Part shown: piece after piece, positions 13,564 through 50,950 of the stretch
Numbering within the stretch: the stretch's first letter is position 1
How the letters are laid out: each line of letters opens with the position of its first letter
Source of the DNA: Lachnospiraceae bacterium
GTDB taxonomy: Bacteria; Bacillota; Clostridia; Lachnospirales; Lachnospiraceae
DNA length: 58,259 nucleotides
Direction: 5' to 3'
Assembly: GCA_030524525.1 (NCBI GenBank)
Contig: JAUNGI010000010.1
Span: 1 to 58,259 of the forward strand
Program-made: the position numbers and the translations under genes
The notes under the pieces: generated by a model
Told to the model about the DNA's origin: nothing
The model's input: only the letters and a program-made list of their open reading frames with translations
The model's database searches: none

Positions 13564-13593
13564 TCGAAGCGGAAGGGAAAGGAAGCCGACAAA

Positions 13594-14874: not shown

Positions 14875-14880
14875 ATCCGT

Positions 14881-14946: not shown

Positions 14947-14977
14947 TTGGTTACGCTTATTTTGGGGGAGAGGAAAG

Positions 14978-15949
14978 ATGAAAAAGAAAATCGCATTATA
15001 TTTTGTCTTGGGGGCGCTTTTGCTGTTTTGTATGACGGCATGTGAAAAGGACGGGGAGAAAAGCTCGTCGGGGACGGAGAACGGAACAACAGCCGCCGTC
15101 AGCGGTAAGCCCGAGGAAAACAAACCGTCGGACGATGATAAAAGCGGTGAAAACGGCGCGGACGACGAACAGCAGCCGACAGCCGATTCGCCAGTTTTTT
15201 GGTTCAATCAGCAGGAATGGACCGAGCCGAACGGAAGCTTTGAGGGCGGGCTGTTTCATGAGGCGATCGGGCTTCCGATCGACTTGCGGGAGCTGGACGA
15301 CATTGCGGCGCCCTATCGAATGTTTGCCGGTGGGATCTACCAGCTCTTTGATTATATCGACACCGACAAAATCGGCGAGCTGCTGGAAAGCGAGGAGGAA
15401 GTGCTTCCGGGAAAGGAAGCGGTCATTGCCGTGCTGACGGATTCCGATTTGTCCGAGGAAGAAGAAAAAGAGCTTTTTGAGCGGCAAAAGGAGTACGGCA
15501 TCGACACGATTGAGATCTGTAATTTCAGTGAACATAGGCTTTCCATAAAAAGCTGCTATGAGAACGGCTGGTGGAGAGTGAAGGCATATGACGCCAATGC
15601 GTTGAGAACGGAGGCTCCGGAAAGCGACGACGAGTATCCGAAGGCGCTGCTGGATTCCATCGTTCAGAAATTCGGTTCGCCGACCTATCTTTTCTGCGCG
15701 CAGACAGAGGACGATTTTTATAACGATATTCAGGGGAATGAGTCCATGGTTGCCTATACGTTGGTATACGAATATCCGGAATATGCCCTGTTGATCGGTA
15801 TGCAGGAATATATCCTGAAGGAATCTGACGGAAAAACGTATAATCATCATTCCGCGGAAATTACCGAGGTGTATTATTATTCGGCAAAGTGCTGGGAAGC
15901 GATGAAAGAAACGACTGCCGATCACTATCTGTTTGAAACGAGAAAATAA
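14978..15949 (+). CDS. Lipoprotein of unknown function, paralogue 1
   Basis: I do not recognise the family of this 323-residue lipoprotein. It has a signal peptide with lipobox MTAC, a low-complexity acidic linker (about 25-75) containing NGTTAAVS, and a globular part of about 240 residues beginning near VFWFNQQEW. It is clearly a paralogue of the gene at 18560: both share the lipid-attachment region, ACEKDG, the GSFEGGLFHE block and the ending LFETRK. I chose ATG 14978 for its GGGGGAGAGG site. It follows the LytTR two-component pair and has matching LytTR-type repeats in its promoter, so it is probably a target. Confidence 0.8.
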   Translation: MKKKIALYFVLGALLLFCMTACEKDGEKSSSGTENGTTAAVSGKPEENKPSDDDKSGENGADDEQQPTADSPVFWFNQQEWTEPNGSFEGGLFHEAIGLPIDLRELDDIAAPYRMFAGGIYQLFDYIDTDKIGELLESEEEVLPGKEAVIAVLTDSDLSEEEEKELFERQKEYGIDTIEICNFSEHRLSIKSCYENGWWRVKAYDANALRTEAPESDDEYPKALLDSIVQKFGSPTYLFCAQTEDDFYNDIQGNESMVAYTLVYEYPEYALLIGMQEYILKESDGKTYNHHSAEITEVYYYSAKCWEAMKETTADHYLFETRK

Positions 15950-24985: not shown

Positions 24986-26440
24986 ATGCCATCGGTTATC
25001 CCGTTTGATTCCTCGATCGCTTTGGGGAACATCGTTGACCCTCGGAAGCTGGAGCGGCTGGAACAGATCAGCGAATTGCAGGCGCCGGCGGACAACGCCG
25101 AGGACGAGCTGAATTCACTGATCGCATTGAAGCGCAGCATCGATACGACGGTTCAGGAGCTGGCGAACCTGCGGATCGATACGACCGAGCTGGTGCAGGA
25201 AAGCAGGGCCGTCGGCGAGGAGATTCAGCAGGCAGCGGTCAATTATGCAAAGGTGAAGGTCAACGCCAAAAAAGAGATCCAGAAGCTGCGGGCGGAACCG
25301 CTTGTGAGCGCAAGCTGGGAAAGCCCGCTGGATTACAACCGCACCGAGATCAAGAAAATGCCGCTCTCATCGGATTCCATGAATATGAACGTGCAGTTTT
25401 TCTCGGTCGACCAGAACAGTCAGAGCTCCAGAACGCAGAGCGAGCATATTCAGGAATTTATCAGCAGCGAGTTCAAATTTCTGGGCGACGATTTTTCCGA
25501 TCAGGCGAGCAAGGCGGCCGCTTGTCAGGTGAACAGTCAGTATTCCCGGCACAACATTATGGGAACGCTTGTCATTGCCGTGAGCTGTACCCATAAGAAT
25601 GCGGCGCTGCTGGCTCCGTGCGTGATCGACGTTGACAAGGCGATCCGGGTATGGAACCACATGCATACCGACGATATGCTGAAAACGGACGATCCCTCCG
25701 GCATCATCGAAACGGCGCGGAACGCCCAGACGGAAAAGGAAGCGTCGCTGACGATCGTATCGGGCGCGACCTACGGCTCCTGCTTTGTCGGGATGGTACA
25801 TATTCTGAACAATACCAGTACGGTAAGCTCGGAGAGAATGAACTCGCTTGCGGAGAGCATTCAGTCCCAGTGCAGGATGAATTCGTGGTTTGGAACGGCG
25901 TCGGGCGGCTTTGGTCTGAGCAAGCAGGTTACCAACGACATCAAAAATCTTTTCAGTACGCAGAACATCACCTCGCACTGTACCATTACGACCCGGGGCG
26001 CCATTCCGTCGATCAAATCCAATCAGGTCAAGCTTGCCGTTCAGCAGTTCACCAACTTTGACGGCAAGGCGGCGATGGAAAATATTGCGGCGCTCCAGAA
26101 CGCGGTCGCGTCGGATAAGGATTCGATCGATGCTTCCGCAGAGGCGGCAAGACTTGGTCAGCAGATGATCTCCTTGAAAAACGCCCAGATCAGCGGTGTG
26201 CTGTCCGGCTTGAGCGAGATCGACGACGGCAGCAACAAGGTCTTGGACATCAATTCCATGATGACCGCGTTTGAGGATTATGTGGACAAAGCGCTCGGCG
26301 GCGAGCTGGGAATGCCGGTCAACTACTATCTGAAGCCCATTACCAAGTCCCAGCTTGCGCAGATGTGGGTCGATAAGTATTTCCCGAACAAATTCCTCAA
26401 GGTATCCACAAGCGAGGGAGAGGAGCAGACAACGGCATAA
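24986..26440 (+). CDS. Unrecognised 484-residue protein
   Basis: I do not recognise this protein. Residues 25-115 are helical and probably coiled coil (ERLEQISELQ onward). The remainder (about 150-440) is a single mixed domain with distinctive runs such as CTHKNAALLAPCVIDVDK, SGATYGSCFVGMVHILNN and GAIPSIKSNQVKLAV. There is no signal peptide or membrane segment. The cysteines and the Ser/Thr-rich beta character recall proteins of fungal type more than typical bacterial enzymes, but this is an impression only. The ATG at 24986 has AAGGAGG. It is a single-gene unit between a repeat copy and a terminator, and a TATAAT at 24931 lies in the right place for its promoter. Confidence 0.7.
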   Translation: MPSVIPFDSSIALGNIVDPRKLERLEQISELQAPADNAEDELNSLIALKRSIDTTVQELANLRIDTTELVQESRAVGEEIQQAAVNYAKVKVNAKKEIQKLRAEPLVSASWESPLDYNRTEIKKMPLSSDSMNMNVQFFSVDQNSQSSRTQSEHIQEFISSEFKFLGDDFSDQASKAAACQVNSQYSRHNIMGTLVIAVSCTHKNAALLAPCVIDVDKAIRVWNHMHTDDMLKTDDPSGIIETARNAQTEKEASLTIVSGATYGSCFVGMVHILNNTSTVSSERMNSLAESIQSQCRMNSWFGTASGGFGLSKQVTNDIKNLFSTQNITSHCTITTRGAIPSIKSNQVKLAVQQFTNFDGKAAMENIAALQNAVASDKDSIDASAEAARLGQQMISLKNAQISGVLSGLSEIDDGSNKVLDINSMMTAFEDYVDKALGGELGMPVNYYLKPITKSQLAQMWVDKYFPNKFLKVSTSEGEEQTTA

Positions 26441-26450
26441 AGCGTTTGGG

Positions 26451-26490
26451 AACCCGAATGGGGCGTATCCTGCCCCAATTCGGGTTTTTT
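26451..26490 (+). terminator. Rho-independent terminator
   Basis: Nested stems AACCCGAAT/ATTCGGGTT and GGGGC/GCCCC are followed by six T. Confidence 0.93.
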
Positions 26491-26501
26491 CTGCATAGCG
26501 C

Positions 26502-26530
26502 TTGAATCCGGACAGCAAAAATGTTATAAT
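26502..26530 (+). promoter_or_regulatory. Promoter of the EAL gene and possibly the matrix operon
   Basis: TTGAAT (26502-26507), a 17-bp spacer and a perfect TATAAT (26525-26530). It is the only clear promoter I see before the matrix gene cluster. Confidence 0.7.
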
Positions 26531-26597: not shown

Positions 26598-28271
26598 ATG
26601 AACGACGAGCTTGTGGGGATCACCGTTGAAGAATTCAAAAGAATCATCGATGTTTTGGATCCGTGCATGGACGATTATTTATATATTATGGACATACCGA
26701 GCGACGGCTACTGTATTTCGGAAGATGCGGTAAAGCGTTTCCGCCTGCCGGCCAGTCGGCTCGAACACGCGCAGGAGCATTTTGACCGGTTGGTATATCC
26801 GGAGGATCGCGAGCTTTTGAATGCGGATCTGGAGCGGATCGTTAAGCACGGGCAGAGCTTTCACAATTTGCAGTACCGTTGGCTGGGAAAGGACGGCAAG
26901 CCGATCTGGATCAACTGCCGGGGACGCGTCCTCTTTGACGCAGAAGGAAAAGCAAAATTTCTGGTGGGCTGCATCAACGAGATCGGCGTCAAGCAGAAGG
27001 CGGACAATCTGAGCGGGCTGTTGAATGCGGAAAGCCTGCAAAAGGAGCTGGCAGCCTCCGAGGCAGGAAGGCTCGGCGGTTTCCTGATCCGTTTCGGGAT
27101 TGATAATTTTAAGGATATAAATGAAAACAAAGGGCTGGACTACGGCGACATGATCATTGCCAAGACGGCGGAGTGCATACAGGAGGAGCTGCTTCCCGAA
27201 CAGAAGCTGTATCGGGTCGTGGCGGACGAGTACATCCTTCTGGATACCGGAAACCGGGGCGCGGAGGAGGCCGCCGCGCTGTACGACAGAGTGCAGCATA
27301 AGCTGGAGCGGTTTATCAAGGAACGGTATTACGAGGTCTTTTATACGATATCCGCCGGTATTCTGGAGCTGGAGCAGATCGAAAATCAGGAGTATCATAA
27401 TCTGATGAAGCTGTCGGAATTTGCGCTGAATGAGGCGAAGGGCCGCGGCAGGAACCAGTGCTATTTTTATAAACGTGAGGATTATCGGGCGTTTTTGTAT
27501 CGAAACGAGCTGACCAGCCAGCTTCTTCTGGCGGTCAACCACGGCTTTGAGGGCTTCGAGGCTTATTTTCAGCCCATCGTCGATCATAAGAAAAATCGGC
27601 TGTGCCGCGCCGAGACGCTGCTTCGTTTTCACAGTCGGGCGCTGGGGAGGATCTCTCCTGCGGAGTTCATTCCGGTTTTGGAGGAGAGCAGCCTCATTAT
27701 CCCGGTGGGGCGCTGGGTCTTGGAACAGGCAATGGCGGCGTGCGCGCGTTTTCAGCAGCGCGTCCCGGACTTTCGTGTTTCCGTGAATCTTTCCTATGTT
27801 CAGGTGCTGAAAAGCAACGTGCTGGAGGACATTCTGAACGGGCTGAAAAAATACGGGCTTCGCTCGGACAGCATTGCCATCGAGCTGACCGAGAGCGGCT
27901 TTCTGGAGACGAACGCCTTTCTTGTGAGCTTCTGCAAGGGCTTGAAGGAGCATGGCATTCCGCTTGTGCTGGACGATTTTGGAACCGGCTACTCCAATTT
28001 TCATTACTTATATCACCTCAATGTTCATACGGTCAAGATTGACCGGAGCTTTACGGCGAGCGCGCTCCGCAATTCCTACGAGCGCAGCCTGCTGCGGCAT
28101 ATGTCCGCCATGGTTCATGACATCGACCTGAAGCTGTGCGTTGAGGGGATCGAAACGGAAGAAGAGCTGGAACGCATCTGCAGGATCGAGCCGGATTACA
28201 TACAGGGCTATTATTACGGACGTCCGTGTCCGTTTGACGAATTTTGGGAGCGTTACGTTGCGGAAAAATAG
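26598..28271 (+). CDS. PAS-GGDEF-EAL protein, probable c-di-GMP phosphodiesterase
   Basis: The 557-residue protein has a PAS-like sensor (about 20-135), a GGDEF-like domain (about 140-295) and an EAL domain (about 305-550). In the GGDEF domain the signature is replaced by VADEYILL, so cyclase activity is unlikely. The EAL domain is intact: AETLLRF supplies the catalytic Glu, followed by NLSYVQV, ELTESGFLE, LDDFGTGYSNFHYL, KIDRSF, VEGIETEEE and QGYYYGRP. It should hydrolyse c-di-GMP or sense it. No signal or membrane segment is seen, so it acts in the cytoplasm. The giant secreted protein begins 37 bp downstream, without an intervening terminator. Confidence 0.9.
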   Translation: MNDELVGITVEEFKRIIDVLDPCMDDYLYIMDIPSDGYCISEDAVKRFRLPASRLEHAQEHFDRLVYPEDRELLNADLERIVKHGQSFHNLQYRWLGKDGKPIWINCRGRVLFDAEGKAKFLVGCINEIGVKQKADNLSGLLNAESLQKELAASEAGRLGGFLIRFGIDNFKDINENKGLDYGDMIIAKTAECIQEELLPEQKLYRVVADEYILLDTGNRGAEEAAALYDRVQHKLERFIKERYYEVFYTISAGILELEQIENQEYHNLMKLSEFALNEAKGRGRNQCYFYKREDYRAFLYRNELTSQLLLAVNHGFEGFEAYFQPIVDHKKNRLCRAETLLRFHSRALGRISPAEFIPVLEESSLIIPVGRWVLEQAMAACARFQQRVPDFRVSVNLSYVQVLKSNVLEDILNGLKKYGLRSDSIAIELTESGFLETNAFLVSFCKGLKEHGIPLVLDDFGTGYSNFHYLYHLNVHTVKIDRSFTASALRNSYERSLLRHMSAMVHDIDLKLCVEGIETEEELERICRIEPDYIQGYYYGRPCPFDEFWERYVAEK

Positions 28272-28308
28272 AACATGCGCGAAAAATATTTTGGAGGGAG
28301 ACGAAGCG

Positions 28309-31300
28309 ATGAAGCACAGAAGAAAAAACAGAAAAATACGATCCGTGCTTTCGCTGCTGTTGGCAGGGATCATGGCGGTCAACACCATCGTCCTCTCCGA
28401 TTTTTTTACGGAGCCGGAGACGGCGGAGGCGGCGGGCGAAGCGCTGGATGCGGCGGAGATCACAAGACTCTGGGAAGCCAAGCGGGACAGCCTCGGATGG
28501 TGCGACGAAAACAACGAACCGCTTGCCGCCATGTGGAAGGATACTTCGGAGCTGTCCACGGCGTGGATCGCGACCACGGAGGACGCGGGAAAGCCGGGCG
28601 TCAATAAAACGGCGGAGCCCAAGGAGGCGATCGCCGGTTCGCTTGGGCAGCGCATCGAATTGGAGGACGGCGCTTCGCTTTCCGATTATGTTTATGAGGA
28701 TGCGGACCGCAGGGTATCGGACTATTCGTTCGGCGGCGTGAGCGTCGCGTTTTCCGACGAGGCGTACGCAAATGTTCCGACCACCCCGGACGAGCTGCAG
28801 ACATGGGAGGGCTGGAACGACGAAAACGCCTATGACGCCGAAACCAATCCGTCGCCGACGGCGTGGAAAATCAGAAAAGGAAATGACGACGTTGTAAAAT
28901 ACATAGACATGTCTGATGCTTATGTCTTTACGCAGAACGAAACCGACGTGCCGGCGCTGTATTACACGATCGAATACGACGCGGGGCTGGAGGGCTGCTA
29001 TCGGAATTATTATGTCAGCACGGCGGATCAGCTTGCGTTCCTTTTGAACGCCTATCAGAGCAATTCCGGTTCGCTGACGGTAAGTTCCGGGGAGCTGCCC
29101 GCAGGCAAAGCGGCGGCAAAGAAGGTCGGCGTTTTGCTTTTGTGCGATCTCGATCTGGGCGGAGTGGACAGAAGCCGTTGGTACGGCTACAAAAATCCCT
29201 CGTTTGCGCTGGAGCTGAACGGCAACGGGCACTCCATATGTAATGCTTATTTTGCTGACCTTTCCTTGCTGAAAGAAGTAAAGTACTATGTGGAAAGCAC
29301 GACGGCGAGTCGGGTCGGTACGGCGGTGGTTACGAAGACGGCTTACGGCGCTTTTTTGAATGAGGATGCCTGTTTTGTGATCGAAGACGTCACCTTCTCG
29401 CATCTGTTTCTCGCGCATGCGGGCGGGGCGTTTGGAAGCGGCGTTTCGAAGGCGTATTTTTCCAATGTGGATTTTACGCGCTGTATGGCAAACGGGACGG
29501 GCGGCGGCACGGCGGTCGTCTTGGGTTTCAATTACCGCCTTGTATATTTTCAGAATTGTACGGTGAGTGACAGCTATGTTAAGGGGCAGGGCCATACGGG
29601 GCTGTTTGCCTCCTACAACGGTCCGCAGACGCCTCTGACCGTTGCAAACGGAGAACTGAGCTCTTATGCGACCTATCTGGGAGATCCGACCGAGGACAGT
29701 CGCATTACGGGATATTATTTTACGGAGGTCCCTTCAATCGAAAATGCGGAAAGGGCGTGGTATGGGAAAACCGTGGAGATCGAGGGCGAGACGGTCAAGC
29801 TTCACGACATCTATCCGTCGATCTATGAAAACTGCGCCGTGCTGGATTCCGAGGTCTACGACACGTCCGAGCATTCGGGTACCTTTGTTTCCTGCTATCA
29901 GGGTTCGATCCTGTTCCGGGAGTGCTTTACAAACTGCAATATATATGCAAATTCTAAGATCGGCAGCTTTGTGGGCTGCGCGATCGGAAGCGGCGACGGC
30001 TTTTATTATCCGGTGGAGGGAAAGCGGACCCTCGTCAATTCCGTCTTTGAAAGCTGCTATGCCTCCGGAGCCGCGGAAGGGAAGAACTACATCGGCGGCT
30101 TTATCGGCTCGATCTACAACGACACGCGTTCTTCGCAATCCGATTACCGGGGACAGGTGGTGTTTGAAAACTGCTATTCGACGGCGTCCGCCGGCATGCA
30201 GTATTCGGGCAATTACGTGGGCGGCTTTGTCGGACTGGTGCACGCCAATCAGGGAACGGCGCTCGACGCGCTGGAGGAGGAAGAACAGCAGCATCTGTTT
30301 GTCAACTGCTACGCGGCGGGAGAGGTCGGCGGCATTACGACCGACACGGCGGCGGAAGGGAACCAGAATACGATCGGCGGCTTTTTGGGCGCTTATGAGT
30401 GGTCCTTTTCCGACAGCCAGATTTTGCCGCTTCGCCTGAAAAATTGCTATTACGACCGGCAGACGACCGCCATGCGCGAGCGGGAGATCGGCGGCGGTCT
30501 GCACGGCATGCTTTCGGGGCTGACCGGCGTATACACGCAGAGCTCGGAGCAGAAGGGGATCGCGGGACTGACCGACACGGTCGAGATGAACGCCGGATTC
30601 GCCGCGGGGGAGAAGTGGAGCTGCTTTTCCGGGCAGTTCTATCCGCAGCTCCTTGCGTGGACAACCGAGCCGGAGCGAAGCGCCTACCCGGAGGGGCTGG
30701 CGGGAGACATGCTCTATGAGCGTCAGCTAAAATATTATTACTATTCGCTCGCCTCCACGGCGGCGGTATTTCTTGACCATTACGACAATATGCTGGACGA
30801 GACGGGCGCGGAGGTTCCTGCCGGGACCGAGGTCTACGATACGGTGCGCGACATTACGAGAAAATTCACCTTTACGACCGACGACGGCAACGGGATCGCA
30901 TGGAAAAACGACAATACGGACGGAAGCAGGAACGACCTGAACGGTTTTGTGGAAAAAATGGGGCAGCAGGGCGCGGGCAGCGAAGAAAAGACGGGCTTTG
31001 CTCTTTCCTACGACAGCGATCTTGACGGAGCCGAGGACGTGAGCCAGAGCTTTGATCCGAACGTCCTTGTGATCGGCGAATACGACGGCGTTTATAAATG
31101 TCTGGACTTTGCGCCCGGAAAGCAGTGGGTGACCGTCACCGCTTCAAAGACGACGGCGGACGGGGACGGACAGAACGCCGGTGTTACGGGCAAACGGGAG
31201 CTTCGTCTGCTTCCTACGGCGTATCTGAACGCGGGCAACATCATCCATATCAACGTCGCCAAGGACGAAAGCGACGGGGAAACGGACAATGCGGTGACCT

Positions 31301-34230
31301 TTACCGACGACAACAACAACGAGATTTTGCTGAACGGGCTGTTCAATCATTCGGTGGGCGTGGCATATGCCATCAGCGACCGCTACCGCATGGGAACGAC
31401 GAGCGTGTACGGGGCGCAGCAGCTTTCGCTTTACGAGGCGGGCGGCTCCAAAACGGAAACGAGCAGCTTTGCGTTTTACGCGCCCTATTCGGTCACCGAC
31501 CCCGCAAGCCGGAATCTGCTGGGGACCAATACGGTCGGCGAAAACGGCGCGGTCATATCGGGAATGCTGGAGCAGAATATCGCCGTAAAAGCCACGGACA
31601 GCATTTACAACCTTTCCTATTCGGGCAAGACGATGGTCAAGGTGTACAAGGCGGTTCCGAAAAAATCCGGCGATTCCACCGAGCTTGTCAAGACCGACGA
31701 GGTGGATTACACGGCGAACAACAACCTTGCCAAATGGCAGGGGGAGACGCCGTTTACGTTGGACGACGTGGGGTATTATTACCTTGACTATTACTGGCGG
31801 CTGGACGACGGCAGATATCTGACCGATTCCCGCCTTGTCCGCATTACGGCGAATTCTTACAGCGTCGAGGTGATCACGGGCATTTTGGATAACGAGCATA
31901 CGGTGGACGAAAACGGCGCGCCGAGAACGCCGATCGACCAGTACGTTACGGACGAGGTGACGCGGCTCAGCGGCGAAGGAGAGGCTGCGGGCAATTACCG
32001 CTGGACGCCGAATTTTCCCTCCATTCGTTTGCAGGGCGCGGACTATGTGGATAACGACGACTTTTCTTCGGAAACCGCGGCGTCGTATTATAATACCTAC
32101 AACGAGCCGATGGAATATAACGGCGATATCTATTACACGAAAAGCCTCAAGCAGACCACCGTCTCCCCGGTGACCGCCGTTGGCTGGTACCGGAACAACG
32201 ATTATAAGCTGACGACGCTGATCATCGAGGCGATCGACCAATACGGCGTGGCGCATGAAATGGCGCGTGTGGACAGCAGCGCGGACGAGCAGTTCAATTT
32301 CAGCAACGCCGAGTACAGCTATGACTTTACGACCTATACGGTAACGCAGGACAAGGAAACGAAGCTGTATACGATCACGGAAAATTCCTCCGTGCCGATC
32401 AACTTTAAGATCGAGGCGGCTTCCCGCAATGCCACGAACAGCGTTACCAAGTATGTGATATTCGACTTCTCGACGACCGGGGACAATCAGGAGGGCTATA
32501 CGCAGATCAACGACAGTCTGCGGGTGACCGCGCTGTTCCGGGAAAATACCGCGAACATCAAAGCGGAAAAGACGGTGCTTCTGGAGCCCGACGAGGAGCT
32601 TTTGCCGGACGCCTCGGAACCGGCCTATTACGAGTCGCTTTCGGAGCACAACCGGGAGTCGGAGGTGGACAATTCCGCGCTTTCGGAGGAAGAAGCCGCA
32701 GACGACCGGAACCGGAAAGCCGTGCTTGCCGGGGATGTCCTGACCTATCGCGTTAAGCTGCACAATGCCGGTTACTTCGATTCGGACAGGGTGCAGGTGC
32801 AGGATACGGTTCCGGAGGGCTGCGCCTATGTGCCGGGTTCCATGAAGCTGTACCGCCAAAGCGTCCACCTTTCGGACGGCGTGTCGAAATACGGCAGGCT
32901 GGAGGAGCTGGGGAGCGAGAACGGCTGTGAGTTAAAAGAGCCGACCGAGGAAGACCCGGCTTTGGAGTGGACGATCCCGAGCGTCTCCCTTGAGTATGAA
33001 TATTATGCGGAATTTCAGGTGACGGTCGGCGAGCTTCGCGCCTGCGACCTCAAACAGGTGCTGACGAACACCGCCACATGGGATTTTATCTGCCGGAACG
33101 GCGACGTTACGGGCGATTACAACGCTCCCGATCTGGAAACGCTGAAGCGGGACTCGATCTTCAGCATGGATATGGACGTGGAGGAGGACGACGAGGAAAC
33201 GCAGAAGCGGACCTATACGATCGAATTCTCACAAAAAGATACCGAAAACCTTTATACGAATATCGTGTTTCTGAACAACTTCCCGGACAAGGGTTTCCGC
33301 CTGCTGGAGGACGGGGACGGGGAGCCGATCAAGCTTTACAAGGCGGAGCTGCAGCCGGACGGAAGCACGGCGTGGGTTCTGCAGGAAACAAACGCCGACG
33401 GACAGCCGGAGCTGACGGTCGTTTACGACGAGGGAGAAGCCAGTTATTTTTCGTTGAAGAATCTGGATTTTGCGAATAAGGACGAGCGGTACCGGATCGT
33501 GTTCAGCGGAACGCAGGTACTGCTTGGCAACGAGGGCATTACCGAGATCTCCAATAAGGCTTCGATCACCTTTACGAAATTTCTTGCGGAGGGCGGCAAT
33601 ATCCAATCCGACCGGCAGGGGAATTCGATCTCCAAGGTGGAGCGCATTTCCAATGAAGTCTCGACCGACGTGACGCATCTGTATCTGCAGGTGCGGAAGG
33701 AGATCGCGGCGGAGGACCTCGGACAGTCGTTCCTGTTCCGGGTAACGTATTTTGCGGACGAGGAAGCGGCGGAGAGCGGCGCGGAGGGAGAAGTCTCCTA
33801 TGTGCGGGTCAACTGCACCGAGAGCGCCGCGGAGAAAAACGGAGAGCCTGTCTTTGTGGGAAGCCGTCTGTTCCAGTGCGGAAAACGCGGCGTTTACCGC
33901 GTGGAGGAGCTTGCCGAGTGGTCGGCTTCGGATTATGATTTCGGCGGGGCTGCGGCATATGCGCTGCCCACGCGGGAAAACGGTCTGCGGCTTTATCCGA
34001 CGGGCGCGGTCGGAAACGGCGGGGCTGTGGTAAACGGCAGAACGGTCACGCTGACGCTGCCGGGCGTCGCCTATTCGTCGGGCGCCTTTCCGACCTCTCT
34101 CGGTACCGTTCTTACGGAGGTTCCGACTGCGGAATTTGTAAATACGGAAAGCGAATACGCATATCTTTCCGGACAGTCCTATGCGGAAAACAACTTTTCC
34201 CGCGCTGAAAATGGGGGTGCGGGAAATTGA
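28309..34230 (+). CDS. Giant secreted surface protein with GLUG-like and DUF11-like regions
   Basis: The 1973-residue protein starts with a long signal peptide (VLSLLLAGIMAVNTIVLS, cleavage after AEAA). Residues about 200-750 hold parallel beta-helix features with GLUG-like motifs (GGFIGSIYN, GGFVGLVHAN, GGFLGAYEW). Residues about 1490-1640 resemble a DUF11 domain (VLAGDVLTYRVKLHNAGYF, DTVPEGCAYVPGS), and 1640-1930 look like further Cna-B-type beta domains. No LPXTG or membrane tail is visible, so attachment must be by other means. I chose ATG 28309 with GGAGGGAG. The stop overlaps the TTG start of the next gene. It is probably the main structural or adhesive component of the matrix operon. 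Confidence 0.8.
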   Translation: MKHRRKNRKIRSVLSLLLAGIMAVNTIVLSDFFTEPETAEAAGEALDAAEITRLWEAKRDSLGWCDENNEPLAAMWKDTSELSTAWIATTEDAGKPGVNKTAEPKEAIAGSLGQRIELEDGASLSDYVYEDADRRVSDYSFGGVSVAFSDEAYANVPTTPDELQTWEGWNDENAYDAETNPSPTAWKIRKGNDDVVKYIDMSDAYVFTQNETDVPALYYTIEYDAGLEGCYRNYYVSTADQLAFLLNAYQSNSGSLTVSSGELPAGKAAAKKVGVLLLCDLDLGGVDRSRWYGYKNPSFALELNGNGHSICNAYFADLSLLKEVKYYVESTTASRVGTAVVTKTAYGAFLNEDACFVIEDVTFSHLFLAHAGGAFGSGVSKAYFSNVDFTRCMANGTGGGTAVVLGFNYRLVYFQNCTVSDSYVKGQGHTGLFASYNGPQTPLTVANGELSSYATYLGDPTEDSRITGYYFTEVPSIENAERAWYGKTVEIEGETVKLHDIYPSIYENCAVLDSEVYDTSEHSGTFVSCYQGSILFRECFTNCNIYANSKIGSFVGCAIGSGDGFYYPVEGKRTLVNSVFESCYASGAAEGKNYIGGFIGSIYNDTRSSQSDYRGQVVFENCYSTASAGMQYSGNYVGGFVGLVHANQGTALDALEEEEQQHLFVNCYAAGEVGGITTDTAAEGNQNTIGGFLGAYEWSFSDSQILPLRLKNCYYDRQTTAMREREIGGGLHGMLSGLTGVYTQSSEQKGIAGLTDTVEMNAGFAAGEKWSCFSGQFYPQLLAWTTEPERSAYPEGLAGDMLYERQLKYYYYSLASTAAVFLDHYDNMLDETGAEVPAGTEVYDTVRDITRKFTFTTDDGNGIAWKNDNTDGSRNDLNGFVEKMGQQGAGSEEKTGFALSYDSDLDGAEDVSQSFDPNVLVIGEYDGVYKCLDFAPGKQWVTVTASKTTADGDGQNAGVTGKRELRLLPTAYLNAGNIIHINVAKDESDGETDNAVTFTDDNNNEILLNGLFNHSVGVAYAISDRYRMGTTSVYGAQQLSLYEAGGSKTETSSFAFYAPYSVTDPASRNLLGTNTVGENGAVISGMLEQNIAVKATDSIYNLSYSGKTMVKVYKAVPKKSGDSTELVKTDEVDYTANNNLAKWQGETPFTLDDVGYYYLDYYWRLDDGRYLTDSRLVRITANSYSVEVITGILDNEHTVDENGAPRTPIDQYVTDEVTRLSGEGEAAGNYRWTPNFPSIRLQGADYVDNDDFSSETAASYYNTYNEPMEYNGDIYYTKSLKQTTVSPVTAVGWYRNNDYKLTTLIIEAIDQYGVAHEMARVDSSADEQFNFSNAEYSYDFTTYTVTQDKETKLYTITENSSVPINFKIEAASRNATNSVTKYVIFDFSTTGDNQEGYTQINDSLRVTALFRENTANIKAEKTVLLEPDEELLPDASEPAYYESLSEHNRESEVDNSALSEEEAADDRNRKAVLAGDVLTYRVKLHNAGYFDSDRVQVQDTVPEGCAYVPGSMKLYRQSVHLSDGVSKYGRLEELGSENGCELKEPTEEDPALEWTIPSVSLEYEYYAEFQVTVGELRACDLKQVLTNTATWDFICRNGDVTGDYNAPDLETLKRDSIFSMDMDVEEDDEETQKRTYTIEFSQKDTENLYTNIVFLNNFPDKGFRLLEDGDGEPIKLYKAELQPDGSTAWVLQETNADGQPELTVVYDEGEASYFSLKNLDFANKDERYRIVFSGTQVLLGNEGITEISNKASITFTKFLAEGGNIQSDRQGNSISKVERISNEVSTDVTHLYLQVRKEIAAEDLGQSFLFRVTYFADEEAAESGAEGEVSYVRVNCTESAAEKNGEPVFVGSRLFQCGKRGVYRVEELAEWSASDYDFGGAAAYALPTRENGLRLYPTGAVGNGGAVVNGRTVTLTLPGVAYSSGAFPTSLGTVLTEVPTAEFVNTESEYAYLSGQSYAENNFSRAENGGAGN

Positions 34231-35117
34231 AAAAAACGATGACAAGGAACAGAAAAAAGAAGATCGGCGCTGCTTCGGCGCTCTGTGTGTGCGTTCTGTG
34301 CGCGCTCGGCGCGGCGATCGCCGCACACTATCGGAATACGCGCCAGCAAAAGGCTGCCGAGAATCCGTTCGTTCCCGCCAAGATCCGCCTTGCGGTACAG
34401 GAGGACGCAGGTACGCCGGGCGCCGGCGCGCCGGAGGACGCCGATTCGGAAAATACGGCTGAGCGGCTGATAAAGGAATTCTCATGGACGAGTTCCGCCG
34501 GGGAAGCGAATGCTTCCGCCGTTAAGCGGGTGCGAATTCTGAATGTAAACGGCGAAGACGAGAACAATGCGGCGGCATATATCCGTCTCTGTATCGTTCC
34601 GCGCTGGGTAACGGAGGTCGCGGTTCCGGCTGCGGACGATGGGGAAGCGACGGTGACGCAGGACGTGGATGTGACGACGTATTATCTGGGAGAGGCCGAG
34701 GACGGCAGTCCGCTTTTCCTCTCCGATTTCGGCAGGCTGACCGACGTGGGGCAGATCCCCGGAACGGTTTATTCGCTTGGCGATCTGACCCTTACGCTTG
34801 ACGGCGCGTGGGCGGATTCGTGGATCTTTAATCCGACGGACGGCTGGTTCTATTATCGGCGGCCGGTGCAGCCCGGAACGGCGACGGAATGGCTTCTGGA
34901 AAGCGTTTCACTGCCGCAGGAGCTGCTTGACGCCGCGGAAGCCGCAGGAATTTCGCTTCGGCTCGATATTCTTGCCGATTCGATCCAGACCGAGGCGGAC
35001 GCCCTCGGCGAACGCTGGGGCGCGCCGGAAACGCTTGGCATTGCGATCGGAGCGGACGGAAGCCTACGGCTGACCTCGGCTCCGGAGGGAAACGAAGGAG
35101 GTGCTGCCGGTGGATGA
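34227..35117 (+). CDS. SipW-operon secreted protein, TasA/CalY-like
   Basis: This 296-residue exported protein has a signal or anchor segment (about 14-34). Its C-terminal half carries features common to TasA/camelysin-like proteins of SipW operons: DGWFYYRRPVQPGTATEWLL followed by LRLDILADSIQ. The start is TTG at 34227, overlapping the stop of the giant protein, with GGGGGTG 7 bp upstream. The next ATG, at 34239, lacks its own site. The stop overlaps the signal peptidase start by 8 bp. A fibre or matrix subunit or adaptor is the likely role, inferred from neighbours and weak motifs. Confidence 0.7.
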   Translation: MKKTMTRNRKKKIGAASALCVCVLCALGAAIAAHYRNTRQQKAAENPFVPAKIRLAVQEDAGTPGAGAPEDADSENTAERLIKEFSWTSSAGEANASAVKRVRILNVNGEDENNAAAYIRLCIVPRWVTEVAVPAADDGEATVTQDVDVTTYYLGEAEDGSPLFLSDFGRLTDVGQIPGTVYSLGDLTLTLDGAWADSWIFNPTDGWFYYRRPVQPGTATEWLLESVSLPQELLDAAEAAGISLRLDILADSIQTEADALGERWGAPETLGIAIGADGSLRLTSAPEGNEGGAAGG

Positions 35118-35700
35118 CGCAAACGAAACGATGTCGAAGAGCGGACGGATCTTCGCGGTCGTCCGAACGATCTTTATTTATTTGCTTTCGGCGTGTATCG
35201 TTCTGGCGGCGCTGCTGTTCGCCGCCGATAAGAGCCCGCGGAAATCGCTGTTCGGCTTTCGGTATTACACGGTGCTGACGCCGTCCATGGAGCCGGAGCT
35301 TTCGGTGGGCGATCTTGTGATCGTGCGGCTTGCAAACGCCGAGGAGGTGGAGGAGGGCGATATCATCACCTTTAACCCCTCCGAGGACAGCGAAGCCTAT
35401 CTGACCCACCGCGTTACGCAGAAGCTGGAAAACTATCAGGGGACGGGCGTTACCTGCTTTCGAACAAAGGGCGACGCCAACGAGACGGAGGACGGCTTTG
35501 TGCTGGACAGCAGCCGACTGATCGGGAAGGTGAGCTTTCACATCCCGAAGCTGGGCTATCTGATCCGTTTCGTGCAGCTCAGGTGGTATTTCGTGATACC
35601 GCTGGTATTGCTTTTGATCGTGTTCTTTGAGCTTTTGAAGATCTACTTCAAAGCCGGGGACGAACAAGAGCCCCAGCCGGAGGCGCCGGACAAAACATGA
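35110..35700 (+). CDS. sipW: SipW-type (ER-type) signal peptidase I
   Basis: The 196-residue protein is a signal peptidase of the archaeal/ER type. It has a membrane anchor (about 20-40), the catalytic serine in VLTPSMEPELSVGD (Ser59) and histidine in place of the bacterial lysine (YLTHRV, His100), then a C-terminal membrane segment (about 160-185). In Bacillus, SipW processes the biofilm proteins TasA and TapA. Here it lies among three exported proteins with SipW-type or TasA-like features. GTG 35110 is the probable start, 8 bp after AGGAGG. A GTG at 35101 overlaps that site. Confidence 0.92.
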   Translation: MDDANETMSKSGRIFAVVRTIFIYLLSACIVLAALLFAADKSPRKSLFGFRYYTVLTPSMEPELSVGDLVIVRLANAEEVEEGDIITFNPSEDSEAYLTHRVTQKLENYQGTGVTCFRTKGDANETEDGFVLDSSRLIGKVSFHIPKLGYLIRFVQLRWYFVIPLVLLLIVFFELLKIYFKAGDEQEPQPEAPDKT

Positions 35701-35771
35701 ATTTTATTATGGAAACATAATGAAAGAATACATAACAGAGCACCAGAAAATAAAAAAGAGGAGTGTATGCT

Positions 35772-36884
35772 ATGAAAAAAAGAAAATCCAATTTGCAAAG
35801 AAAAGTGCTGATCGTTTCGATCGTACTTGCGCTGCTGATCGTGGCGGGCGGAACCTTTGCATGGTTTACCTCTAAGGACGAGGTAACGAACAAACTGACG
35901 GCTTCCAACAATTACGGCGTATCCATCGTCGAGAGCTTTACCCCGCCGGAAAACTGGACACCGGGGCAGGAAGTCAACAAGGACGTATTTGTGACCAACA
36001 CCGGCAACATTGACGCCTTTGTTAAGGCTTCGATTTCTTCGGCTATGGCTTTGACGACGGAGGACGCGCCTTTGGAAATCTCTGCAGACAACGCAGCCGA
36101 TGTTTCCAAGCTTGTGGAGCTCAGCCGGTCGGAGGACGCCGACAGCATGGTCGATGAGGTGAAGGCGATTCAGGCGGGCGGCCGTCTGGTGTATAAGGAG
36201 ACCGAAGGAAATGCGTCCCAGCTCTGGGTGAACGGCGAAAGCGAGAGCTTGGTAGGTACGGATTACACGCCGGACACGACCGGACTTTATATCTTTGAAA
36301 GAAGCCTCGGCTCCGCCGTGGAATATACGGGCTACTACTATAACGCGGATACTGCAAAATACTATGCTCTTGCATCCGTAACGGCGGTGAAAGACGGGGA
36401 CGATGCGATCACCGGCTTTGAAGCAACGCTGAGAGCAAAGAAGCAGGTCGAGGCGGCGGATACCGATCTTGCATATGATTTTACGAATATTGAGGACGCC
36501 GCCGATCCCCGGATCGTTGTTACATACAACAACGGAACGGCTGACGACGCGTCGGACGACGTTATGATCAACATTCGTTTGGCGGCGGGCTGGACGGACG
36601 ACTGGACATGGGACGCGGACGAGAAGGCTTTCTATTATAACCATACGCTGAAGGCAGGTGAGGCGACCGCAAAGCTGATCGACGCGCTGGAGCTGGACGA
36701 GGCGGTAACGAACGCCGCATACATAAGCTTTGAGTATGATCTGACGATCACCGCAGACAGCGTTCAGGTTACGACGGATGCGGCAGGAACGCAGACCGCC
36801 GAAGCGGTAAGCTGGGCTTTGACGCCGACGCTTACCTATGACGCGGACAACGTGACCATTGCCTCGATCGCATGGGCGCGGTAG
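35772..36884 (+). CDS. TasA-like matrix protein with SipW-type signal peptide
   Basis: The 370-residue protein opens with the classic SipW-type signal: basic residues, a hydrophobic core (VLIVSIVLALLIVAGG), then TFAWFTSKDEVTN. The mature part begins with NKLTASNNYGVSIVE and FVTNTGNIDAFVKASI, as in TasA/camelysin-like proteins. It ends with the WTWDADEKAFYYN and LTITADSVQ blocks that also occur in the 34227 gene. It is the best candidate for the fibre-forming subunit. I chose ATG 35772 with GAGGAG 8 bp upstream. A 71-bp gap separates it from sipW, with no clear promoter. Confidence 0.85.
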   Translation: MKKRKSNLQRKVLIVSIVLALLIVAGGTFAWFTSKDEVTNKLTASNNYGVSIVESFTPPENWTPGQEVNKDVFVTNTGNIDAFVKASISSAMALTTEDAPLEISADNAADVSKLVELSRSEDADSMVDEVKAIQAGGRLVYKETEGNASQLWVNGESESLVGTDYTPDTTGLYIFERSLGSAVEYTGYYYNADTAKYYALASVTAVKDGDDAITGFEATLRAKKQVEAADTDLAYDFTNIEDAADPRIVVTYNNGTADDASDDVMINIRLAAGWTDDWTWDADEKAFYYNHTLKAGEATAKLIDALELDEAVTNAAYISFEYDLTITADSVQVTTDAAGTQTAEAVSWALTPTLTYDADNVTIASIAWAR

Positions 36885-36925
36885 TACAGCCATAAAGGGA
36901 AAAAACGGCGGAAAGGAGAAGGACG

Positions 36926-37699
36926 ATGACAAAAGCGGTTTGGAAAACGGAAATCTCGGTGTTTTTGGCGCTCCTTCTCCTTTTCTGCGGTTTTACAACG
37001 GTTTTTGCGGAAGCCGTACTGCCCGAAGGAGCGGTGGCAGGGCTTCCGGAGAAACTGACGGTTATGGACAGCGACGGAAATTCCGTCAGCAGCGAGACGG
37101 GAGAATATTTCTTCCGTGTGGAAAATATGACGCCCGGCGAGGTCTATACAAAACAGATCTCCGTCATGAACCTCCGGGAGGACAAGGCGTATCATATTTA
37201 TTTCTATGCGCAGCCCATAAGCAGCGAGGGCGAGATCCGTTTGGACGAGGAATGTACGGCTTCCTTCCTGCTGAACGGCGAACCGATCTACGAAGGTAAG
37301 GTGACCGGCGAGGGGGAGCCCGACATGAGAGAGACGCCGCTCGACCTTGGACTTTTTGAGCCGGGAGCGTCCGCGACCTTGCAGTGCAGCGTCGTGTGGA
37401 GCGGAACCGACGCAGGCGGTCTGATCGACTACGGGCACAGGGTCGTTGACGGCAGCGGTACGGAGGTCATACGGGAAGGCAGCGGAGACGCGTCGATCTA
37501 CGGCGAGACCACGTTTCGCTGGATCTTCTATGCGGTCGTCGATGAGAGCTACGAGCCTCCGCGTACCGGCATTTTGGCGGCGGACAATCGGCTCTATGCC
37601 GGTGTGCTGGCGGCGGTCGGTCTGACAACGCTGCTCCTTTTTCTGCTGACCGTGAAAAAACGGCGGGAAAAGGAAGCGGAGAAAGGAGCGTCGGCATGA
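36926..37699 (+). CDS. Secreted protein with C-terminal PRTG sorting-like tail
   Basis: The 257-residue protein has a normal signal peptide (about 8-28), a beta-rich ectodomain, and a C-terminus composed of PPRTGI, a short polar stretch, a hydrophobic segment (about 222-243) and KKRREKEAEK. This is the plan of a sortase substrate, with PRTG in place of LPXTG. The sortase gene two positions downstream is an obvious partner. It may anchor the TasA-like fibres to the wall, as TapA-type accessory proteins do in Bacillus, but there is no sequence similarity that I can claim. The stop overlaps the next start in an ATGA. Confidence 0.78.
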   Translation: MTKAVWKTEISVFLALLLLFCGFTTVFAEAVLPEGAVAGLPEKLTVMDSDGNSVSSETGEYFFRVENMTPGEVYTKQISVMNLREDKAYHIYFYAQPISSEGEIRLDEECTASFLLNGEPIYEGKVTGEGEPDMRETPLDLGLFEPGASATLQCSVVWSGTDAGGLIDYGHRVVDGSGTEVIREGSGDASIYGETTFRWIFYAVVDESYEPPRTGILAADNRLYAGVLAAVGLTTLLLFLLTVKKRREKEAEKGASA

Positions 37700-38397
37700 G
37701 CGGTCGGAAAAGAAAAACAAGCCGGAGAAGGCTGCCCTATGTGCTGGGAGCGCTTCTGCTTGCCGCAGGTCTGCTGATTATGGGCGGTACGCTGGCGTAT
37801 TTTCGCGGACGGGACGTCGTTACCAACCGGACCGCGTCAAAAACGATCGAGATACTGCTGACGGAGCTTCGCTGGCAGGAGAGCGGCAGGGAAAAGGCGG
37901 CGAGAATGGAGCCGGGCATGGTCATTGAAAAAGACCCGTGCGTGTACAATAACGGCGAGACGTCCGTGTACGTTCGGATGAAGCTCGTTCTGGAGGACGC
38001 GGAGGGAAACGAGATCGTCTCCGGCGAGTCCGAACGATATGAAAGTCTGCTTGCCGCGATCTACTGCGGAAGCGTCGGGGGAGCCGCGGAGAAGCCGCTT
38101 TTGGCGTTGTCCGGGGAAGCGCCCGTTTCGCAGAATCCGGCGTTTGAATATGAGGACGGCTGGTTCTATTACAGAACCGACGGGGTCTATACGGTGCTTG
38201 CGCCGGAGGAGGCGACGCCGACTCTGTTTGATTTTGTGAAGGTGCCGGTCAAAAAGGCGGAGTACAACGGGGTTTTCGATCAGGGCTATCGGATCGTTGT
38301 TGTGGCGCAGGCGGTTTCGTCGGAGCTGGCGGGAGAGGAAGCCGTCAGGCAGGCGTTTGAAGACGCGACCAGCGTTGCGGAGCAGGACGCGCCGTAG
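37696..38397 (+). CDS. TasA-like protein with SipW-type signal peptide, second
   Basis: The 233-residue protein has a SipW-type signal: arginine-rich start, hydrophobic stretch (about 14-31), then GGTLAYFRGRDVVTNR. The mature part includes VYNNGETSVYVRMKLVLED, which parallels the TNTGNIDAFVKA block of the larger TasA-like protein, and a YEDGWFYYRTDG motif as in the other members. It is probably a minor matrix subunit or assembly factor. Translation is coupled by a 4-bp overlap to the PRTG protein, and the sortase follows after 11 bp. Confidence 0.82.
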   Translation: MSGRKRKTSRRRLPYVLGALLLAAGLLIMGGTLAYFRGRDVVTNRTASKTIEILLTELRWQESGREKAARMEPGMVIEKDPCVYNNGETSVYVRMKLVLEDAEGNEIVSGESERYESLLAAIYCGSVGGAAEKPLLALSGEAPVSQNPAFEYEDGWFYYRTDGVYTVLAPEEATPTLFDFVKVPVKKAEYNGVFDQGYRIVVVAQAVSSELAGEEAVRQAFEDATSVAEQDAP

Positions 38398-38408
38398 AAA
38401 GATAGGAT

Positions 38409-39245
38409 ATGAGAGCGAAAAAAAAGAAAAAGCAGCCGAAGGGCTTGAAAATTTTGATCGGAGCGACCGCAGCGTCGCTCCTTTGCGTATTTGTCTGGAT
38501 TGGTTTTCGCCTGTTCCGGGAGGTTCGGGAGGAAAACGCATATGAGACGGAAAACGAAAATTTACAGCGGCTGCGGCCGCAGCTTCCGACGGGAGCGGGC
38601 GGAACGACGGAGCCGGCAGGCGGAAACGAGGGAACTCCTTCCGACCCGGAACCTGCGGAGCCGGTCAATTATCTGGCGGAGCTGCAGGAGAGCAATCCGG
38701 ATGTCGCCGCATGGCTGACGGTTCCGGGTACGGCGATCGATTTTCCGGTCGTGCAGGGAGGGGACAATAAATATTACCTGAATCACGATCTGGCGGGAGA
38801 GAGCTCCAAGCTTGGCGTGCCGTTTCTTGACGTGCGCTGCCGCCGGGATTTTACGGATTTCAATTCGATTGTCTACGGGCACCACATTTCGGGCGGCCGC
38901 ATGTTTTCCGAGCTTGACAAATTTCGGGAGGAGGCGTTCTTTTTTGAGCACCCGGAGGCGACGCTTATTACGGAGACGCATGTCTATACCGTGCGCCTGC
39001 TGGCATGCCTGATCACGCCCAGCGACGGCTTTGTTTATCATACGGTTTTTTTGTCGGAGGACGACCGGCGGATCTTCCTGCGGGACGTGAGGGCGAACGC
39101 GCTTTGGCTGCGGGACTTTTCGGAGGAGGAGCTGCTTTCCGGCAGCCTGCTGACGCTTTCCACCTGTGCCTACGAGTACGAGGGCGCCAGAACCGTGCTG
39201 ATCGGGGCACTGGAAGAGGGCAGTACGAAACAAGGGCAGCCGTGA
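38409..39245 (+). CDS. Class B sortase
   Basis: The 278-residue membrane-anchored transpeptidase has an N-terminal membrane segment (about 14-36), a Pro/Glu-rich spacer and a sortase domain of class B type. The catalytic residues are His in YGHH (158/159), Cys253 in LSTCAYEYEGAR and Arg261. Class B enzymes often anchor haem-uptake proteins or pilins at NPQTN-like motifs. No such motif is seen here, and the nearest candidate substrate is the PRTG protein of the same operon. It is the last gene of the operon; a new promoter begins 10 bp after its stop. Confidence 0.92.
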   Translation: MRAKKKKKQPKGLKILIGATAASLLCVFVWIGFRLFREVREENAYETENENLQRLRPQLPTGAGGTTEPAGGNEGTPSDPEPAEPVNYLAELQESNPDVAAWLTVPGTAIDFPVVQGGDNKYYLNHDLAGESSKLGVPFLDVRCRRDFTDFNSIVYGHHISGGRMFSELDKFREEAFFFEHPEATLITETHVYTVRLLACLITPSDGFVYHTVFLSEDDRRIFLRDVRANALWLRDFSEEELLSGSLLTLSTCAYEYEGARTVLIGALEEGSTKQGQP

Positions 39246-39254
39246 TTGGGGTTC

Positions 39255-39283
39255 TTGACAAAAAACTGTCGTTAGCATATACT
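39255..39283 (+). promoter_or_regulatory. Promoter of the DUF6110-ATPase pair
   Basis: Perfect TTGACA (39255-39260), 17-bp spacer and TATACT (39278-39283), 44 bp before the next ATG. Confidence 0.85.
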
Positions 39284-39326
39284 AATTTCAGAATAACGCC
39301 AACGAGAACGAAGGAGGAAACGAACG

Positions 39327-39596
39327 ATGTTAAAGTGCTTAAAATGTGTGGATTGGAAGAAGACGGGAATCTTTGCCGCCGGAGTTGCGTTTGGAACGGC
39401 GGGGATCAAGCTGTTGTCGAGCAAGGACGCGAAAAAGGTGTATACAAGCTGCACGGCGGCGTTTTTGAGAGCAAAGGACAGTGTTATGAAGACCGTAACG
39501 ACGGTTCAGGAAAACGCCGAGGATATTCTTGCCGACGCCAAGCAGATCAACGAGGAGCGGGCAGAGAAGGAAGCGGCGGCGCAGTTTGAGGAATAG
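39327..39596 (+). CDS. Small DUF6110-like protein
   Basis: The 89-residue protein begins with KCLKCVDWKK, followed by a short hydrophobic glycine-rich segment (about 14-30) and a charged helix ending EEKEAAAQFEE-like. It resembles the DUF6110 family found beside P-type ATPases in Clostridia. It may assist metal delivery or stabilise the transporter. The CLKC pair near the N-terminus could bind a metal, but that is only suggested by the residues. GGAGG lies 10 bp before the ATG, and the ATPase starts 20 bp downstream. Confidence 0.75.
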   Translation: MLKCLKCVDWKKTGIFAAGVAFGTAGIKLLSSKDAKKVYTSCTAAFLRAKDSVMKTVTTVQENAEDILADAKQINEERAEKEAAAQFEE

Positions 39597-39616
39597 CCGG
39601 GAAAGAGCGGAAGCAG

Positions 39617-50840: not shown

Positions 50841-50937
50841 GCTATTTGTTTCTGAGCGAAAACAAATAGCTCTGATGGCAGATGAGAAACCGCCTGCGCG
50901 GATTTCTCATCGCCTCTTTGCGACAAGGTCGCTCAGA
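50841..50937 (+). promoter_or_regulatory. Three-hairpin leader of the Fic gene with possible pseudoknot
   Basis: Hairpin 1 pairs GCTATTTGTTT (50841-50851) with AAACAAATAGC (50860-50870). Hairpin 2 pairs GATGAGAAA with TTTCTCATC (50881-50911). Hairpin 3 pairs GCGAC with GTCGC (50920-50932). The loop of hairpin 1, CTGAGCGA (50852-50859), is fully complementary to TCGCTCAG (50929-50936), which lies next to the ribosome-binding site and competes with hairpin 3. Confidence 0.55.
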
Positions 50938-50950
50938 AATGAGGATTAGA

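Follow-up and report, generated by a model that had tools for sequence, protein, structure and literature searches.

TasA/BsaA-type fibres are established matrix polymers, and their attachment to the cell and the cargo that they display are the questions addressed here with a locus from the 2.65-Mb draft genome of a Lachnospiraceae bacterium, studied in a stretch of 58,259 nucleotides (the window). A tip adhesin-polymer-base layout is found in chaperone-usher pili, which are joined by donor strands, and in sortase-built (SpaA-type) pili, which are anchored to the wall and carry CnaB-type adhesin domains. The genes at 28309-39245 of the window rather probably encode a SipW-dependent pilus of donor-strand type, with a base protein that bears a PPRTG motif and is anchored by a class B sortase (SrtB), and with a giant tip adhesin attached through its C-terminal tail. 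The logic of this operon is similar to that of chaperone-usher pili, but no usher was seen in it, and its anchoring is similar to that of SpaA-type pili, but no class C sortase was seen. The pair of features by which a SpaA-type pilus was to be recognised, a class C sortase and a sorting signal on the polymer subunit, is absent: the sortase is of class B, and the BsaA protein ends without such a signal.

Published systems are compared here from excerpts of the papers cited. In Clostridium perfringens, an operon sipW-bsaABCRSD with srtB located 5′ of sipW has already been published, and it is like the window in its SipW, its BsaA-family fibre protein, its further secreted proteins and an srtB gene adjoining the fibre genes (PMC7395162). 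It differs in its two-component pair, bsaRS, none being found among the window genes at 26598-39596, and the window, unlike the C. perfringens operon as excerpted, combines two minor pilins with a PPxTG base protein and a giant whose tail is donor-strand-like (PMC7395162). The first-pass annotation of this DNA had regarded the whole combination as not described; this has to be narrowed, since SipW, BsaA and an adjacent srtB are published for C. perfringens (PMC7395162), and it holds for a sortase-anchored base and C-terminal donor-strand tails in SipW systems, of which no description was found in the open-access literature.

In Bacillus subtilis, the N-terminal strand of TasA completes the next subunit, and the similar N-terminus of TapA has been proposed as the first donor strand (PMC9674648), with support for TapA as the donor at the filament start (PMC10151520). 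The tapA-sipW-tasA operon is like the window in its SipW-cut subunits of the TasA superfamily, its N-terminal donor strand and the separate first-donor protein proposed for it; the difference is that TapA donates its N-terminus and the excerpted accounts name no sortase step, whereas the donor proposed for the window would be the C-terminus of a protein of 1973 amino acids (PMC9674648, PMC10151520). The TasA/CalY/CapP system of Bacillus cereus is also a heteropolymer of the TasA family with a wall-associated accessory protein, but it is described as sortase-independent, and CapP has a DUF4047 region predicted as a helical bundle, with no PPxTG signal in the excerpted text (PMC13082335). The SrtB of Clostridioides difficile is a class B sortase acting on (S/P)PXTG; it cleaves PPKTG (PMC4155245) and links CD2831, via PPKTG, to diaminopimelate (mDAP) (PMC4591827). 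As in the window, a class B sortase is thus paired with a motif of this type, the PPKTG substrate being controlled by cyclic di-GMP (c-di-GMP), but CD2831 is a single adhesin and not a fibre base, and the substrates lie outside the SrtB operon (PMC4155245, PMC4591827).

Gene content and recurrence of the fibre module

Eight open reading frames (ORFs), all on the plus strand, span 26598-39245 with intergenic spacings, in order, of 37, -4, -17, 71, 41, -4 and 11 nucleotides, three of the seven junctions being overlaps. As judged from their sequences, the last seven genes are a SipW-dependent (TasA/BsaA-type) fibre module, and the first, an EAL gene treated below, is a local neighbour. The module comprises the following features:

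28309-34230, + strand: giant secreted protein, 1973 amino acids from ATG, with one DUF11-type repeat; proposed tip adhesin
34159-34200, + strand: residues 1951-1964 of the giant, its C-terminal tail AYLSGQSYAENNFS; suggested to mimic the donor strand at the mature N-terminus of SipW pilins
34227-35117, + strand: minor SipW-type pilin, possible adaptor; TTG start, 4-nucleotide overlap with the giant gene, TIGR04090 27.5 bits
35101-35700, + strand: SipW-type signal peptidase, 199 amino acids; GTG start, TIGR02228 87.3 bits (cut-off 51.85)
35772-36884, + strand: BsaA-family fibre subunit, 370 amino acids; TIGR04090 102.9 bits (cut-off 60)
36926-37699, + strand: proposed wall-anchored base protein, 257 amino acids; member of a conserved family that no Pfam or NCBIfam model matches above its cut-off
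37556-37570, + strand: sorting motif PPRTG, with a hydrophobic stretch and then a basic tail behind it; from a 33-row alignment
37696-38397, + strand: second minor SipW-type pilin; TIGR04090 27.7 bits, below cut-off
38409-39245, + strand: class B sortase (SrtB), 278 amino acids; TIGR03064 154.2 bits (cut-off 153.75)

The first-pass annotation had listed eight same-strand genes with overlaps, including an EAL protein with a dead GGDEF domain, a secreted protein of 1973 residues, a SipW-type peptidase and a class B sortase; all eight are real at their positions, and the EAL, SipW-type and class B sortase identifications were borne out by searches of Pfam and NCBIfam, with functions assigned by homology. 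The label TasA-like proved sound for the BsaA protein at 35772-36884, which was also matched by TIGR04088 (34.2, cut-off 19) and Pfam M73 (29.5, cut-off 22.5), while the two minor pilins fall below the TIGR04090 cut-off and are tied to BsaA by profile comparison only. In these comparisons with the BsaA profile, the C-terminal half of 34227-35117 gave 97.9% probability (3e-13) and the N-terminal part of 37696-38397 gave 99% (2e-18); relatives of the former are present in several module loci. The peptidase is assigned to the SipW type by its TIGR02228 score and the position of its gene between two pilin-type genes, and it is not the Bacillus equivalog, as NF046067 gave 81.8 bits against a cut-off of 190. 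Elsewhere, a genome of 2.5 Mb (G129; labels in G and L are our own for genomes and loci) has ten SipW-type matches, an unusual expansion.

The base protein was used as the marker of the module, because many unrelated sortases turn up (46/61 genomes), which disqualified the sortase alone. The giant alone was also rejected as a marker, with just a 120-residue C-terminal match in one relative among 22 same-genus genomes. An alignment of the base protein (A1) was scanned over a collection in which 84,980 species are each represented by a single genome, and the 73 pattern matches led to 35 confirmed loci, a lower bound, as the scan needs short exact patterns. These loci are mostly from Ruminococcus, including strains of R. 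flavefaciens, but also from Oscillospiraceae, Lachnospiraceae and other Clostridia, and many come from the rumen or other forestomachs. A same-strand BsaA above 100 bits was found in 30 of the 35 loci, with weak matches in two more, SipW above 150 bits in 25, and SrtB on the same strand in 27 and on the opposite strand in two. A same-strand ORF of at least 1000 amino acids occurs in 20/35 loci, those of L102 reading by eye as RNA polymerase subunits; several of the loci are cut by contig ends. The first-pass annotation had asked for conservation of the set in relatives, and the set minus the EAL gene does recur in this way. As a profile, A1 matched at E <= 0.001 in 8/397 genomes of the family, three of them at 1e-90 or better, and in 3/398 genomes of a phylum sample, own genome included; genomes were sampled evenly within taxa, and related loci cannot be counted as independent.

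In the tree of the 33-row alignment, the window falls in a 5-row clade (100/98) with L084, L097, L110 and L100, and rows from Lachnospiraceae stand at three places among those from Oscillospiraceae, a scatter that we read as horizontal spread of the module. Some relatives have other genes at the locus. In the R. flavefaciens locus L092 (11638-13363), SrtB is followed by a gene like an extracytoplasmic function (ECF) sigma factor and one for an anti-sigma-like membrane protein, in place of the minor pilins and the giant (by eye), and ORFs in L094, L095 and L117 have similar starts. On the minus strand of L092 (4632-7667), divergent and beside the pilus operon, lies a gene for a large secreted protein with a dockerin-like C-terminal repeat, with like ends in L093-L096 and L117 (by eye), which suggests a cellulosome neighbour.

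The sorting signal and the proposed base protein

The sortase passes the TIGR03064 cut-off narrowly, and its three residues H158, C253 and R261, which we take to be the catalytic ones, are invariant in the window and two relatives; with the score, this histidine, cysteine and arginine place it in class B, and the best match among class B sortases of the PDB was 7e-44. In the substrate, the threonine and glycine of the motif are invariant in the 33 aligned rows, which comprise the window and 32 of the 35 loci (L096, L115 and L116, the last with a fragmentary base gene, were left out). Among 34 readable loci, the motif reads PPxTG in 24, another xPxTG in nine and SVKTG in one. The protein has the layout of an (S/P)PXTG substrate, namely a signal peptide, PPRTG, a hydrophobic stretch and the basic tail KKRREK, and this layout is kept in the 33 rows. 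By these sequence features, the protein is a conserved PPxTG-type sortase substrate, of the motif class cleaved by the C. difficile SrtB. The wall-anchoring step by sortase that had been proposed at the outset is supported by this substrate and by the same-strand SrtB genes of the related loci, and the alignment and gene context suggest that the protein is probably the wall-anchored base of the fibre.

Whole-genome searches returned eight distant matches to the base protein, seven of which (G210, G367, G283, G203, two in G681, G756) adjoin SipW-type pilin genes and end in C-terminal signals reading PPKTG, SPKTG, LPKTN, LPQTG, MPKTG or VKTG. Two of the seven are fusions, one of a pilin domain and a base domain (L122), the other of a SipW peptidase and a base domain in one protein of 630 amino acids (L064, 10570-12462). 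A broader base profile of 12 diverse rows (A10) was then positive in 43/250 genomes of the family and 14/196 of the order, own genome in both. The loci examined were the 30 best of 54 family places with the places of the order search, 46 loci with 44 distinct genes, four of these being themselves members of A10. Of the 44, 42 either have a pilin gene no more than 750 bases away or carry a pilin domain in frame, and 14 are in-frame pilin fusions. A C-terminal hydrophobic stretch is present in 41, and a T-G pair in the last 60 residues in 37, the latter being a loose pattern without a background rate. Among the 250 family genomes, 38 of the 43 base-positive ones are also SipW-positive, against about 15 expected (p 1.3e-15), and SipW lies within 5 kb at 33/52 base places. 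Homology between the base and pilin domains was considered and rejected on non-significant profile comparisons, although a similar PG..K..N register recurs. The mature N-terminus of the base protein is unlike a donor strand in the 33-row alignment (by eye).

The giant protein and its C-terminal tail

By eye, the giant begins with a hydrophobic signal and lacks a sorting signal at its C-terminus; its DUF11-type repeat scored 34 bits with TIGR01451. Its first description as a giant beta-helix was not upheld: such a fold found no support in Pfam, in NCBIfam or, for residues 1-1064, in sequences of the PDB, and was set aside. The giant of a same-genus relative reads beta-helix-like by eye, but has no Pfam match. 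Four giants of relatives were searched; two matched SpaA (with PA14 below cut-off), one Cna_B (L105, in which the tail is absent) and one nothing. A phmmer search with the window giant against the ORFs of the 35 loci, L059 and L062 gave two matches only, in L110 (146 bits) and in L116 (30 bits).

The tail of the giant, AYLSGQSYAENNFS, is like the mature N-termini of the window pilins, AWFTSKDEVTNKLT in BsaA and AYFRGRDVVTNRTA in the protein at 37696, and matrices derived from the N-termini of pilins gave it 8.1 and 8.7 bits. Most module giants share an end like FxNxExEYAYLSxQAYAENxI, and the tail is present in 11 of 16 readable ones (window, L062, L086, L087, L089, L090, L091, L109, L110, L115 and L116), those of L089, L115 and L116 ending near-identically; the L084 giant, which ends in masked residues, was left out, and the C-end of the L105 giant was read in L059. 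Two large ORFs of unclear membership (L118 3890-7081, L062 7033-9573) also have no tail. On a second contig of the same-genus genome (L062 3-6863), the C-end of a giant shares the last domain of the window giant and the tail AWRSAQAYSENNIK.

The pilin matrix, 14 columns built from pilin N-termini only, was run on 231,550 windows of 598 non-pilin ORFs, and 19 windows exceeded 8 bits. Nine of the 19 lie within 10 amino acids of a C-terminus; of these nine, which are not all independent, module giants account for six and other SipW operons for three (one in L068, two in L121). Two held-out sets were used, in which intact ORFs of at least 700 amino acids within two same-strand ORFs of a pilin were counted as near. 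In 40 new SipW loci, the tail was in the top 5% of its protein's own 40-residue blocks in 6/12 near proteins (Kolmogorov-Smirnov p 0.004) versus 1/26 elsewhere (p 0.62). In 39 further loci, scored with 60-residue blocks chosen after the earlier tails had been seen and with some genomes reused at other places, the pilin-only matrix gave 4/11 near versus 0/28 (Fisher p 0.004), and a refined matrix, which also uses tails of the earlier loci, gave 7/11 versus 1/28 (p 0.00015). With similar tails removed, 8/35 near tails exceeded 4 bits versus 2/127 far tails, and none of 500 column-permuted matrices reached eight such near tails (mean 0.3, maximum 2). A tail pattern written after the tails had been seen, and hence descriptive only, matched 24/65 near, 1/257 far and 21/1150 internal blocks.

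Many such proteins have, by eye, a CnaB-like last strand ahead of the tail, the position of which is that of the sorting signal in LPXTG proteins. Among six held-out tailed proteins, one matched choice-of-anchor A and one fibro-slime above cut-off, two had a similarity to SpaH/EbpB pilins below cut-off and two had nothing notable; the tail lies outside all of the NCBIfam matches. Co-variation of the giant tail with the N-terminus of the minor pilin was viewed by eye and was not established.

Proposed assembly, alternatives and meaning

Our observations are the gene set and how it recurs, the sorting signal, and the similarity and enrichment of the tail; from them we infer fibre formation, the subunit that accepts the tail, polarity and adhesion. 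The SipW of the operon would cut BsaA (35772) and the two minor pilins (34227 and 37696), freeing their N-termini, and the subunits would polymerise via the freed N-terminal strands, as TasA does. The giant (28309), which has neither a wall anchor nor a recognised pilin domain, would imitate the pilin donor strand with its C-terminal tail and occupy the groove left open in the first subunit. With its donor strand ready, it would start the filament at the eventual distal end as the tip adhesin, BsaA polymerising behind it. The base protein (36926) would end the filament at the wall, where SrtB (38409) would cut between threonine and glycine and join it to peptidoglycan. A TasA-like groove in the base domain is putative, as profile comparison gives it no significant likeness to pilins. 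The reverse polarity is also conceivable, since the TapA donor of B. subtilis is placed near the cell surface.

Several observations weigh against this model. The tail match is a short 14-mer shared by descent within the module, the tail is absent from 5/16 readable module giants (L099, L103, L104, L114 and that of L105), 4/11 held-out giants are outside the top 5% even with the refined matrix, and the top-scoring non-pilin window (L125) lies 51 amino acids from a C-end. Six of the 35 loci have no local SrtB (L115 is cut right after the base gene), and 19/52 base places have no SipW within 5 kb. The base domain showed no significant similarity to pilins in profile comparison (2-16% probability), and the eighth distant base match (G152, E 3.5e-4, 589 amino acids) lies beside a transporter-like gene without pilins, although this match is probably due to chance. 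Deletion of srtB in C. perfringens left BsaA polymers and pellicle unaffected, according to the excerpted report (PMC7395162), and TapA of B. subtilis is placed near the cell surface, the opposite end from that proposed for the giant (PMC9674648).

The shortness of the tail match and its absence from some giants would fit a giant that is an ordinary co-expressed secreted adhesin. Its tail would then belong to its own CnaB/SpaA-like domain, as a final strand or as a linker, and would resemble pilin N-termini by chance or by convergence on a beta-strand; the position of the tail behind a CnaB-like final strand would also agree with this. We consider it unlikely, as column permutation never reproduced the observed count, large proteins far from pilins seldom score in any of the comparisons (2/127, 1/26, and 0/28 or, with the refined matrix, 1/28), and tails from the other SipW operons (L068, L121) match as well. 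The points on the sortase would fit a matrix operon as in C. perfringens, with released, self-polymerising BsaA fibres and with the sortase and its PPxTG substrate as a dispensable side system. In addition to the normal polymers and pellicle of the srtB mutant, the excerpted report describes a BsaA without an LPXTG-like motif and polymers that are mainly extracellular (PMC7395162), and SrtB is absent from some module loci. Fusion of the base domain to pilin domains in 14 of the 44 examined cases and to SipW in one, and the excess of SipW-positive genomes among base-positive ones, argue against a side system, which we hold to be no more probable than a giant with an ordinary last strand. An anchored donor-strand pilus with a giant tip adhesin is the reading that we favour. 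As to its generality, we are evenly divided on whether these loci represent a widespread, undescribed class of Gram-positive adhesive pili, in which SipW-dependent donor-strand fibres have a dedicated sortase-substrate base and a giant tip adhesin held by a C-terminal donor-strand mimic, a 'donor-strand anchor' that stands in for an LPXTG signal in surface proteins of the CnaB type.

The EAL gene and the signals in front of it are the following:

26445-26495, + strand: terminator-type hairpin 3′ of the upstream gene 24986-26440, by RNA folding (-26.4 kcal/mol, z -4.25; 0/200 shuffles as good)
26502-26530, + strand: promoter-like site before the EAL gene, by consensus scan (10/12, TG ahead of the -10), a match that is not evidence of function
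26598-28271, + strand: PAS-GGDEF(degenerate)-EAL protein, 557 amino acids (Pfam EAL 1.4e-60, GGDEF, PAS_3)

The EAL domain scored 205 bits in Pfam, the motifs looked for, ETLLR, DDFGTGYS, VKID, EGIE and QG, which presumably hold the residues that matter for function, are present, and the GGDEF site reads VADEY; from these motifs, the protein is probably an active c-di-GMP phosphodiesterase. The locus had been read by the first-pass annotation as a c-di-GMP-controlled extracellular matrix operon with this protein as an integral regulator, and the 37 nucleotides between the EAL and giant genes would suit that view. A terminator and separate promoter between the EAL gene and 28309 had been named as a feature that would refute it; the scan of 28271-28309 listed no plus-strand terminator or promoter-like site, a negative of little weight, since the strong hairpin at 26445-26495 was overlooked by that scan as well, and co-transcription of the two genes is plausible. 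Among the 35 loci, however, an EAL-type gene is found on the same strand in one (L089) and on the opposite strand in one more (L111), and none was seen in the same-genus relative (L063/L084), where the upstream genes are transporter-like by eye. The genome has six EAL genes, and a search for a c-di-GMP riboswitch in front of the operon found none. A c-di-GMP input as part of the system is thus not supported and improbable; on this evidence, the association of the EAL gene with the fibre genes belongs to this lineage rather than to the system, and the gene is an unconserved neighbour whose product may tune expression in this lineage.

Other genes of the window were also recorded. Downstream of the sortase, a promoter-like site at 39255-39283 (11/12 in the consensus scan) precedes genes for a DUF6110 protein and a P-type (E1-E2) ATPase (39327-41731). 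The gene upstream of the hairpin, 24986-26440, encodes a protein of 484 amino acids without an above-cut-off match in Pfam or NCBIfam. At 12694-15949 lie genes for a LytTR response regulator and a GHKL sensor kinase, a pair about 12 kb upstream of the EAL gene, and behind them a lipoprotein-like gene that has no match in Pfam; a Fic-domain protein is encoded at 50882-52045.

The proposed architecture is a coherent surprise assembled from known parts. If the model is true, many Clostridia of the gut and rumen would make wall-anchored donor-strand pili with giant, exchangeable adhesins, and the short C-terminal tail would allow such adhesins to be found from sequence. For Ruminococcus flavefaciens and the other rumen-type bacteria that carry the module, a candidate role of these pili would be attachment to plant fibre or to neighbouring cells.

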